From Anaerolineaceae bacterium (lineage in GTDB: Bacteria; Chloroflexota; Anaerolineae; Anaerolineales; Anaerolineaceae): DNA of 64,000 nt. The position numbers and the translations under genes are program-made. Below are positions 32,122 to 35,722 of this stretch, piece after piece (the stretch's first letter is position 1; each line of letters opens with the position of its first letter). Below the pieces are notes generated by a model. It was not told the origin of the DNA, ran no database searches, and worked only from the letters and a program-made list of their open reading frames with translations. The DNA lies in assembly GCA_016841525.1 (NCBI GenBank), contig JAENYZ010000002.1, positions 454,078 through 518,077 of the forward strand, in the 5' to 3' direction.

Positions 32122-32127
32122 TTGAAT

Positions 32128-33570
32128 ATGTTTTTGGATGATCTAAAATATGCGGCGATAGAAAAATGCGGGTTAGTACCTGAAAAACCGATTCTGGTGG
32201 GCGTGTCTGGCGGCGTAGACAGCCTGGCTTTGATGTTTGGGCTGGAGGTTCTGGGTTTTCAACTCAAGATTGCACACCTTGATCACAGTTTGCGCGCAGC
32301 GTCCAGAGAGGATGCGGAATTCATTGAAGATTTGGCTGCTTCACGCGGATTGGCATTTGTTCGCAAACGCGTGGATGTGGGGAAGGCGGCTGAGTTGCGG
32401 GGTCAGACCATCGAAGAGGCTGCCCGGCATGTGCGTTATATATTTTTATTTGAAGAAGCGAGGAAAATTGGCGCACAAGCTGTTGCAGTCGGGCATCATG
32501 CGGATGACCAGGTTGAAACGGTCCTGATGCATTTTCTGAGGGGGTCAGCCTTGCCGGGTCTGACAGGCATGGTATATAAAAATTTCATTTCCCTGTGGGA
32601 CTCCAGCATTCCACTCGTCCGCCCGCTGCTTGGGATATGGCGAATTGAGATTGAGACCTTCCTTGATGAATTGGGCGTTGAGGTGCGGGTTGATCATACC
32701 AACCAGGATGTGACCTATTTTCGAAATAGGCTGCGCCATGAATTGATCCCTGAGTTGGAAAAATACAATCCCCAGATCAGAAATGTTATTTGGCGAATGT
32801 CGGATGTTCTGCGAGAAGAAGACCGGTTTTTAGATGAACAAGCGCAAACCGCCTGGAAAGATTGCCTGGTAAATCAAAATCAAGCCCGCATTATCCTTAA
32901 CATTGCCGTGGTGACCAAGCATCCGACAGCACTTCAGCGAAGGTTGTTAAGATTTGCTATTTCCTTGCTTCGCCCGGATTTACGGGATGTTGGTTATGAC
33001 GCTGTAGAAAGAGGATTGGCTTTTGTGAATGATCCTTCACAAAATGGCGAAATAGATTTTATTGCCCGGTTGAATCTTGCAAAAATTGATGATACTTTGA
33101 TCATCAAATCCTGGGGGAGTGATTTACCAGACTGGGATTTGCCCTTGCTGCGAAATGCGGATTCAGAGTTTACTTTAAATCTTCAAAAGCCCGTACTCTT
33201 AAGGCATGGATGGTCACTGCAAGCAAAGTTGATTACCGAAGTCAAATCTGGTGACTTTGATAAGGCAAGCACCCTGGATCCAAACGAAGCCTGGCTGGAT
33301 TTTGATTTGTTAGAAATGCCACTGATGGTGCGGGGACGTCAGCCTGGAGACCGGTGGCAGCCGTTGGGGATGCCTGGTCACACCAAAAAACTTAAGGATT
33401 TTTTCATTAATGAAAAGATCCCGGAACATGTTCGGGATCTTTGGCCGTTAGTGTATTCGGGAGATGAAATTGTCTGGGTGGCGGGCTTAAGGCCTTCTGA
33501 AGCTTTCAAGATCACAACAAACACACAAAAAATTTTACACTTGAAGCTAGTGCGCAAGATCACCCAGTAA
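32128..33570 (+). CDS. tilS: tRNA(Ile)-lysidine synthase
   Basis: 480 aa. PP-loop ATPase with GVSGGVDSLAL near the N-terminus, then HLDHSLR, GHHADDQVETVLMHFLRG and the C-terminal TilS domain (GRQPGDRWQPLGMPGHTKKLKDFF). It converts C34 of the AUA-reading tRNA-Ile to lysidine. The start is the ATG at 32128 (MFLDDLKY); the TTG six bases upstream lies within the expected promoter-start region. No Shine-Dalgarno sequence is visible. Confidence 0.95.
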   Translation: MFLDDLKYAAIEKCGLVPEKPILVGVSGGVDSLALMFGLEVLGFQLKIAHLDHSLRAASREDAEFIEDLAASRGLAFVRKRVDVGKAAELRGQTIEEAARHVRYIFLFEEARKIGAQAVAVGHHADDQVETVLMHFLRGSALPGLTGMVYKNFISLWDSSIPLVRPLLGIWRIEIETFLDELGVEVRVDHTNQDVTYFRNRLRHELIPELEKYNPQIRNVIWRMSDVLREEDRFLDEQAQTAWKDCLVNQNQARIILNIAVVTKHPTALQRRLLRFAISLLRPDLRDVGYDAVERGLAFVNDPSQNGEIDFIARLNLAKIDDTLIIKSWGSDLPDWDLPLLRNADSEFTLNLQKPVLLRHGWSLQAKLITEVKSGDFDKASTLDPNEAWLDFDLLEMPLMVRGRQPGDRWQPLGMPGHTKKLKDFFINEKIPEHVRDLWPLVYSGDEIVWVAGLRPSEAFKITTNTQKILHLKLVRKITQ

Positions 33571-33609: not shown

Positions 33610-34551
33610 TTAAGTTTCACCAGGCTCTTCGGTAAGGTAAAAGCCCTGCTGCAAGGCTAATTTTCGCAATTTTTGGTGAATTTCTCGAAATTGAATTTTT
33701 GAAACACCTAATTTTTGCCTGATCTTGTCGGATTCGACTCCGTCAATCAAATCCTGTAATACACTGGTCCATCGGCACATGTCAAATGAGATGCGTTTTT
33801 CAAGGCCGGCAGCTTCCGTGATGTCTTCTAAAATGTATTCCAGGCGTCGTGGAGTCCATGGGAAAAGGCGTTCTTCCGGTTCGTATTGATTTACATATTC
33901 GTTGAAGGATTCAACCCAATCCTTTGTAAGGGGGATTTTTCTTTCCTTGTATCGATAGCGGGGATTGGTATAACGAATAAAAACGAAGGCTTTTTCAGGG
34001 TCTTCAAGGGAAAGATGTTTCAGGGCAATGCTCTGGCATTCCCCTTTTTTGATGGCTGTTTCAAGCAGCAATTTAAATAAAGTATATGGACGGGCATCGG
34101 GCTGCTCCCCGTACCGAAAATCCCTCGCAGTCGCTAAGGCTTTTTCGATTTCTTCCGGTGATAGGATATCGGGCAGGGGGCTGGTCACCGAGCGCTGGAC
34201 AAGTTTGTCTGCGGGGTCGACCAGTAAGACTGCGCTATTTTGCAGCCATCGGAAGAAGCTTTTTAGCGATGTGATGCGTCGTGAAAGGCTTTTGGGGCTG
34301 CAGGGAACACCCCGATCATTTTCGAGCCAGTCCGTAAAGTTCTCGAGGTCCTTGAGAGAAATTTCTCCCAGGGTTTGGTCTGGCGGTAGAAAATCGTCGA
34401 GTAAGTTAAGATCAGCAATGAACGCTTTAACGGTATGCGGAGAACGCCCCTGGTCATTTAAATAAAACCTCCAGGCCTGGATAGCAGGCTGGAGGAGAGA
34501 ATTCTCTGTTAGATGTGCAGGCGTACCTTTTTCTGTCGTTTGATTAGTCAT
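33610..34551 (-). CDS. Tyrosine-recombinase-fold protein lacking catalytic residues
   Basis: 313 aa with a SAM-like core-binding domain (about 25-115; LNDQGRSPHTVKAFIADLNLL) and an integrase-like C-domain (about 130-300). Catalytic positions are changed: the first Arg (usually TGLRISE) reads TAIKKGE, the H-x-x-R box reads FDMCRWT (Arg kept, His lost), LGHS reads LGVS, and the nucleophile Tyr region reads REIHQKL with His. It probably binds DNA but cannot cleave it. No att site or mobile gene is next to it. AGAGGTG precedes the ATG. Confidence 0.8.
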   Translation of the reverse strand: MTNQTTEKGTPAHLTENSLLQPAIQAWRFYLNDQGRSPHTVKAFIADLNLLDDFLPPDQTLGEISLKDLENFTDWLENDRGVPCSPKSLSRRITSLKSFFRWLQNSAVLLVDPADKLVQRSVTSPLPDILSPEEIEKALATARDFRYGEQPDARPYTLFKLLLETAIKKGECQSIALKHLSLEDPEKAFVFIRYTNPRYRYKERKIPLTKDWVESFNEYVNQYEPEERLFPWTPRRLEYILEDITEAAGLEKRISFDMCRWTSVLQDLIDGVESDKIRQKLGVSKIQFREIHQKLRKLALQQGFYLTEEPGET

Positions 34552-34627
34552 GACACCTCTTTGTTTTTATTCGTGTAGTCGTGAATAATCTTAGTTTAAA
34601 CCAAACGACAATCCTTGTCAATAAGCT

Positions 34628-35722
34628 TTATTGCAATTGAAAGGCTTCAATCATCACATCCCTGATTTTATCGTAATCCGGGACAAGCACCTGGGCGCCT
34701 TGCATTGTCAACCAATCATAGGCATGGTCATAGCCAATGACATAGGATCGGATATCACCATTCTTGTTGATCTCGTTGGCTAACGGCAAAAGGCCAAGAA
34801 CATCGGTTAATTTGATGTCGGTATCAACATAGTCGATATAAGCATTGTAAAGGTCGGGTGTTTTGACAATAATGTCTAAACTCATCAAGCGGTTGAATAT
34901 CGCTTTAATTACTTCCTGGGAACGCCTTGCACGATCAATATCATTGGTAGAATAACGCGACCTGGCGTACCACAATGCTAATTCACCATTCATATGTACG
35001 GAACCGGGGCCAACACTGCACCACCCACTTGGATTGATCCATTTGGCGCAGGAATCACTTAAGCCCTTTTCAGTTTGGACGGTAATTCCCCCAAGATTGT
35101 TGATCACTGATTTGAATCCATTGAAATCAACCAGCAGGTAATGATCCGGTCGAATGCCGAAATTTTCCTCGAAGGTATCTGCCAAGAGATCAAATCCGCC
35201 GCGTGGAAAAGCCACGTTGATCCGGTTTTCACCATATCCCGGGATATACACATATAAATCCCTGGGGAAGGAGACTGCACTGACAAAACCATCTTTAGGA
35301 TTAAGAGATACCCACACGATGATGTCCGTTCGGAAACCGCCTTCGTCAGGCCTGGCGTCAGAACCCAGCAAGAGGATATTCACCTGGCCTTCTGGCTTTT
35401 GTAATGCCCTCAATGTTGATGTCGGCGATGTCTCAGGGCTGCCGCCTGGTTCTGGTGTTCCGATCGGGTCTGATCCGCCTTCTGTTTCATCCGAAATTGG
35501 TTGAAATGGTGTTGGGGTGATCTGGGCTTGTTCCATTGCCTGTTTGGTTTGCATTGCGTAAGTATAGGCTAAGCCCGGGCTTTTATTTGCAGATATTCCT
35601 GACACCAGGATAAAACCCAGCACGCCAATCAATGTCACAAATATAAGTACGGAAAAGATCTCAAGGATCTTAGGCGGACGATTTTTTCTTTGCTTTCTAA
35701 TTTCATTTCTTCTCGAACTCAT
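34628..35722 (-). CDS. LytR-CpsA-Psr (LCP) family glycopolymer ligase
   Basis: 364 aa: one N-terminal helix (about 20-45), a Thr/Pro/Gly-rich spacer, then the LCP domain (about 115-300) with NILLLGSDARPDEGGFRTD, SFPRDLYVYIPGYGENRINVA and the acidic and Arg residues that bind polyprenyl phosphate. Members attach wall glycopolymers or glycans to the cell wall outside the membrane. Anaerolineae are monoderm-like, so the acceptor is uncertain. ATAGGTGA precedes the ATG. Confidence 0.92.
   Translation of the reverse strand: MSSRRNEIRKQRKNRPPKILEIFSVLIFVTLIGVLGFILVSGISANKSPGLAYTYAMQTKQAMEQAQITPTPFQPISDETEGGSDPIGTPEPGGSPETSPTSTLRALQKPEGQVNILLLGSDARPDEGGFRTDIIVWVSLNPKDGFVSAVSFPRDLYVYIPGYGENRINVAFPRGGFDLLADTFEENFGIRPDHYLLVDFNGFKSVINNLGGITVQTEKGLSDSCAKWINPSGWCSVGPGSVHMNGELALWYARSRYSTNDIDRARRSQEVIKAIFNRLMSLDIIVKTPDLYNAYIDYVDTDIKLTDVLGLLPLANEINKNGDIRSYVIGYDHAYDWLTMQGAQVLVPDYDKIRDVMIEAFQLQ

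Follow-up and report, generated by a model that had tools for sequence, protein, structure and literature searches.

Tyrosine-recombinase-fold proteins that have lost recombination and work as regulators are so far known from a few phages. The described case is MrpR (YopR), the master repressor of the Bacillus prophage SPbeta. According to the excerpted text of PMC10516654, MrpR has lost its recombinase function together with most of its catalytic residues and binds DNA as a repressor at a 15-bp promoter element; the same excerpt holds that tyrosine recombinases have probably been recruited as transcription factors more widely than had been assumed. SroF of phage phi3T also has the tyrosine-recombinase fold, and the titles of its entries call it a repressor. 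The XerD protein of Bacillus subtilis is an intact recombinase that also acts as an unloader of SMC, a task that is not known to need catalysis. It provides a precedent for Xer proteins at DNA sites beyond recombination (PMC12322038, in excerpt). A QLxLF consensus is described in the excerpted text of PMC4549789 for transposases and replication proteins that bind the sliding clamp.

The protein considered here is encoded in a 64,000-nucleotide stretch of DNA from an Anaerolineaceae bacterium, called the window below. In contrast with MrpR and SroF, which are phage genes with phage targets, its gene is chromosomal and is kept across most of a bacterial class; its family also differs from the phage repressors in the residues substituted, in a half-site-like element at its own promoter and in a clamp motif carried by relatives. 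We consider it probable that the window protein is a vertically inherited member of the Xer/integrase fold that has lost cleavage and has been kept as a sequence-specific, autoregulated DNA binder. A job on the chromosome is a weaker part of this proposal, all of which is drawn from comparison of sequences and predicted structure.

The gene occupies positions 33610..34551 on the minus strand and is recognised as that of a dead tyrosine-recombinase-fold protein from the list of open reading frames, Pfam, alignments and an AlphaFold model. The initial annotation described a full-length gene, and so it is: the frame starts with ATG, runs for 313 amino acids with no internal stop, and is preceded by a GAGGTG ribosome-binding site read from the sequence (34554..34559, minus strand). 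Its convergent neighbour is tilS (32122..33570, plus strand), with PP-loop and TilS_C domains in Pfam. Upstream on the same strand lies a gene of the LytR-CpsA-Psr (LCP) family (34628..35722, minus strand; Pfam), and the two are separated by a promoter with a likely -35 box, TTGACA (34616..34621, minus strand), and, 17 bp from it, a likely -10 box, TAAACT (34593..34598, minus strand), both read from the sequence and an upstream alignment. This context is conserved. Among 146 loci with a neighbour set (six of 152 loci gave none), a TilS homologue is at most eight genes away in 92, directly downstream and convergent in 59; an LCP homologue is equally close in 69 and directly upstream in 49. The neighbourhood of the dead gene is a housekeeping one. 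A phage origin was considered and rejected: ten phage records match, the eight listed at 23-28% identity, and the chromosomal context with tilS is conserved.

The two-domain fold, with a SAM-like and a catalytic domain, is present in the window protein by Pfam, AlphaFold and structural matches. Phage_int_SAM_1 (40.3 bits) and Phage_integrase (31.2 bits) both score above their cut-offs. The AlphaFold model has a mean pLDDT of 91.0 and a pTM of 0.68. Its top structural match is XerA (Z 19.8) with an rmsd of 13.7, so the two domains must be placed differently in the model and in XerA; XerH follows at Z 18.6 and rmsd 5.0. Cre and lambda integrase are also among the matches, as are the dead repressors SroF (Z 14.4) and MrpR (Z 13.0). 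XerC, XerD and XerA share domain order, length and fold with the window protein and are among its best matches in sequence and structure, but the protein falls below all three NCBIfam cut-offs (XerD 80.7 bits against 329.6, XerC 79.1 against 335.15, XerA 69.8 against 220) and, unlike them, is without Arg I, both His residues and Tyr. One solved entry, PDB 9i5v, gives the name RaiA to its chain 14 of 401 residues, although residues 8-199 of that chain match the window tyrosine recombinase; the chain may be a fusion, or the name a matter of labelling.

The active set R-K-H-R-H/W-Y is thus missing Arg I, His II, His III and Tyr. In a profile alignment with the solved XerA, Lys168 falls on Arg I, Asp257 on the His of HxxR and Val283 on the third His; Arg II (260), the hairpin Lys (202) and Glu171 are still present. 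The Lys-like first arginine and the lost box histidine, both pointed out in the initial annotation, extend well beyond this copy. An alignment of 70 orthologues has Lys in 65 and Arg in 5 at column 168, and column 257 is D in 56, S in 6, A in 3, L in 2, E in 2 and N in 1, never H. Columns 260 and 261 are R and W, respectively, in 70 of 70, and R154, K169, E171, H179, R193, Y194, E203, R204, R235, E238, R260, R278, G282, Q287 and E290 are invariant. A wider set of 228 near-family loci, which includes clade B and some redundancy, gives K at column 168 in 223 and R in 5, no His at 257 or 283, and at most two of the five catalytic residues in any locus. The same losses recur in the relatives checked, none of which has an intact catalytic set. 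Five loci (L048, L049, L050, L051 and L071) have Arg at column 168, with the other lost catalytic residues still absent.

The place of the nucleophile is less simple. It had been read as carrying His, and what stands of this reading is that the window protein has no Tyr there, be the place His292, as spacing indicates, or Leu295, as comparison with clades B-D indicates. In this respect it differs from MrpR, which keeps its Tyr (PMC10516654, in excerpt). His292 itself is a local feature, found in 17 of 228 loci, where column 292 otherwise holds S (56), R (37), G (31), K (24), F (15), N (10), Y (10), A (10) and others. In clades B, C and D, the Tyr of a YRxLA motif (Phe in L229) aligns with Leu295 of the window protein, so the true tyrosine place may be 295. 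Tyr is found at 292 in 10 of the 228 loci, without the remaining catalytic residues, and at 295 in 20.

Purifying selection on the dead-recombinase gene is strong: compared with its two closest relatives, the gene has a dN/dS of 0.056 for one and 0.071 for the other (farther pairs are saturated). A match was found in 95 of 101 related genomes, a minority being weak matches to other recombinases, and in 290 of 296 genomes of the class, with E<1e-40 in 254 and only weakly in 36. The remaining six (G276, G294, G341, G347, G373 and G383, five of them in family f33) have no profile match, and the gene may have been lost there. The dead gene is usually present in one copy per genome. With a profile of all dead clades, matches of at least 241 bits were found in 37 of 121 genomes of the phylum, the next match scoring 152 bits; they cover all 16 genomes from the class and 21 of the 105 from elsewhere in the phylum. 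The counts of 254, 37, 16 and 21 were made by eye from match lists, in which 42 phylum genomes with no match are not listed by name. A contig scan gave 433 matches. Every title among the best 80 carries one of the names Brevefilum, Anaerolinea, Mesolinea, Anaerolineae, Anaerolineales, Anaerolineaceae, Chloroflexi and Chloroflexota, and the closest named entries of these 80 belong to an Anaerolineaceae bacterium and to Brevefilum. The gene is maintained, as had been proposed, and the same losses run through all the relatives examined. Decay into a pseudogene would account for the lost catalytic residues and for the split matches, of the kind that a frameshift or a faulty assembly leaves, in three of the 101 genomes (G007, G048 and G075), but it is ruled out by the low dN/dS and by the open frames of relatives at 40-96% identity; newly invariant residues, among them R154, K169, E171, R204, R235, R260 and G282, also speak against it, and we give it practically no weight.

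All the dead proteins used fall on one side of a branch with SH-aLRT support of 100 in two quick trees, one against 15 intact Xer proteins and one against 24 intact Xer proteins and integrases, both made without bootstrap; in the second, the branch of the intact Xer L258 is very long, probably because of a wrong frame, and L322 was left out, none of its frames having passed. The dead clade has divergent branches outside the class and stands apart from both the intact Xer proteins and the integrases, so an ancestor that was XerC/D in particular, as first suggested, finds no support. Clades A-D match genome groups, and descent therefore appears vertical.

The upstream regions of 15 loci, 14 from the genus and one from the family, share an invariant TTGACA and an element near CTAYRCGAA. 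In the window this element is GACTACACGAA (RRCTAYRCGMA; 34570..34580, minus strand), a candidate operator taken from motif counts across loci. A non-redundant set of 182 of the 228 loci, made by the last 120 residues, was used for counts of motifs and tails. CTAYRCGMA occurs near the gene start in 132 of the 182, against a background of 0.025 per 450 nt estimated from the same DNA, the 450-nt interval being anchored on the start of the open frame, from which the actual start codon may differ. A TTGAC..TANNNT promoter lies just upstream of the element in 124 of these 132 loci. The position relative to the -10 box is bimodal: in 31 of the 124 it is -2, the element starting two bases inside the end of the box, and in 93 it is +5 to +20, the element starting 5 to 20 bases past the box. 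The element overlaps the -10 box in 32 loci, and in 16 of these it is followed by a second direct copy, 13 bp on in 11 cases; such a copy is present in 3 of the other 100 motif-bearing loci. As a gapped direct repeat, the motif occurs once per genome, at the dead gene, in seven of eight f12 genomes (G254 has none); 13 other genomes gave a single hit, elsewhere in G011, and with the reversed control G011 had one hit and G034 two. Fifty of the 182 loci are without the element, among them the whole of clade B (20 loci) and many of the order's divergent members; it is also absent at ten intact Xer loci and at ten loci of clades C and D. When clade B promoters were searched for a motif of their own, only TATAAT-like words appeared, no better than in a coding control.

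The strand of the element is almost always sense (132 to 2 antisense; the 3' control around the stop codon gave 0 sense and 1 antisense of 182), as would suit a signal in an RNA leader, or the site of some other regulator, and the element would then be uninformative on the window protein. We think this unlikely: the distance from element to start codon varies widely (mostly 0 to 50), there is no enrichment elsewhere in the window's genome, and the element overlaps the predicted -10 box in 31 loci, so that it lies mostly upstream of the start of transcription. The candidate operator could perhaps be bound by another protein. Its place at the promoter of the dead gene itself suggests a protein that binds DNA and regulates its own production, in the manner of the dead phage repressor MrpR. 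In the mechanism that we favour, the window protein would bind the half-site-like element of 11 bp over the -10/+1 region of its gene and thereby repress its own transcription. The proposal that a recombinase was reused as a DNA-binding factor is thus sustained as to reuse, by selection, class-wide conservation and the single dead clade; for binding, the evidence is indirect and comes from the fold, the invariant Arg and Lys residues and the promoter element.

How far such regulation would reach was examined with the single motif. In the window's genome it has 17 hits, against 32 for the reversed control; 14 are inside open frames of more than 110 codons, and the others are the gene's own promoter and two intergenic places. 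Since single copies are not enriched genome-wide, a wider regulon is not seen, and this candidate was rejected. Four genomes of the genus gave 79 hits, from which 30 loci were made; of the 27 places then examined, 5 seemed non-coding in a test that must be rough, as it called the dead gene's own promoter in L298 coding. No recurrent second target was found among the 27 places except one that is common to two close genomes. There, GACTATACGAA stands between genes that we take, from the look of their sequences, to be manA-like and ROK-kinase-like (L271:301-311, and about position 1500 of the turned locus L293), with differing adjacent bases, and it is a possible second target. A purely local transcription regulator of the MrpR type, acting at its own promoter and a few others with no role in the chromosome or replication, would fit the element at its own gene, this shared manA-side site and the precedent of MrpR, which has likewise lost most catalytic residues and binds a promoter element (PMC10516654, in excerpt). 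Presence in most of the class suggests a core role instead, a recurrent target beyond the manA-side pair is wanting among the places examined, and a clamp motif in relatives is unexpected for a simple repressor; we therefore regard a purely local role as rather unlikely.

The reverse complement of the element, TKCGYRTAG, fits the inner nine bases of the XerC arm of Escherichia coli dif (sequence from PMC3025954) at eight of nine positions, a fit that by our rough estimate is expected by chance about once per hundred tries and is therefore suggestive only. This resemblance would be explained if the window protein were the dead partner of an active recombinase, joined with it in a mixed complex at a dif-like site, and several genomes with the dead gene do hold an Xer-like second match (those inspected, L230, L231 and L232, keep R..HxxRH). 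Such an arrangement is nevertheless improbable, for in the order an intact-Xer match of at least 240 bits, a cut-off of our choosing, is present in only 6 of 61 genomes (families f4, f5 and f11; three more score 182-197 bits). The window's own lineage falls in family f1, in or near the genus Brevefilum; no canonical Xer was found in the f1 genomes that were sampled, where the best match has 146 bits, and the XerD model has no match above its cut-off in the window's genome, the best being an integrase at 119.7 bits. Moreover, a paired dif-like pattern, guessed from the half-site with one mismatch allowed, occurs at 3 sites in the 16 genomes scanned, where its reversed control has 14. With this count, the role in chromosome segregation that the initial annotation had offered as an example gains no support.

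A further feature appears in the tails of relatives. The strict clamp motif Q[LPR][SDPE]LF is found in the N-terminal tails of 20 of 162 class A members, 6 of 20 in clade B, 1 of 7 in C, 3 of 3 in D and 0 of 10 intact Xer proteins; shuffled tails give 0.06, 0.03, 0.01, 0.00 and 0.00, respectively. With a wider QxxLF-type pattern, the counts are 22 of 37 for divergent class A members (profile score under 445), 18 of 20 for B, 4 of 7 for C, 3 of 3 for D and again 0 of 10 for intact Xer proteins, and the shuffles give 0.46, 0.26, 0.04 and 0.05 for the four dead groups. Because the strict hits were already in view when the pattern was widened, the strict version is the cleaner test; both sets of counts keep L177, whose open frame has no tail left. 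The wider pattern is absent from the N-terminal tails of all 125 near class A members, and no clamp-type QLxLF motif was found in the terminal tails of the window protein. The very C terminus carries such a motif in two of the near members, QLQLF in L044 and QLQMF in L053. Divergent relatives thus share in a terminal tail the consensus of clamp-bound transposases (PMC4549789, in excerpt), which the window protein is without. A literature search found no paper that joins tyrosine or Xer recombinases with sliding-clamp terms.

The motif in relatives points to an old link with replication that would not carry over directly to the window protein. The family might descend from a chromosome maintenance factor linked to the replication clamp, the link having been lost or replaced in near members. 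The tails of the divergent A, B, C and D proteins, well above shuffles, the C-terminal motifs of L044 and L053 and the agreement with the transposase consensus all suit such an ancestor, which we hold as a tentative possibility, given that the motif could be the relic of a mobile element, that the window protein lacks it and that the wider pattern was chosen after the fact. For the DNA binder that we prefer, the main job may lie on the chromosome, at first next to the clamp, a reading prompted by the clamp-binding motif in a flexible tail of divergent relatives; this is the weaker step of the mechanism. A fuller and doubtful scenario would have a domesticated dead family carried by the clamp along new DNA to half-dif-like sites for the upkeep of the chromosome, with the window lineage outliving both the clamp motif and canonical Xer to become an autoregulated stand-alone binder. 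A chromosomal dead family that selection has kept over most of a class, with members in other groups of the phylum, would, if true, make the reuse of dead recombinases old and central, and the motif in relatives, if it is a clamp motif, would connect the replication clamp with a protein of the tyrosine-recombinase fold. At clade B loci (L198, L204, L211 and others), the dead gene has neighbours on the opposite strand that, from the look of their sequences, presumably resemble ComEC and ComEA.
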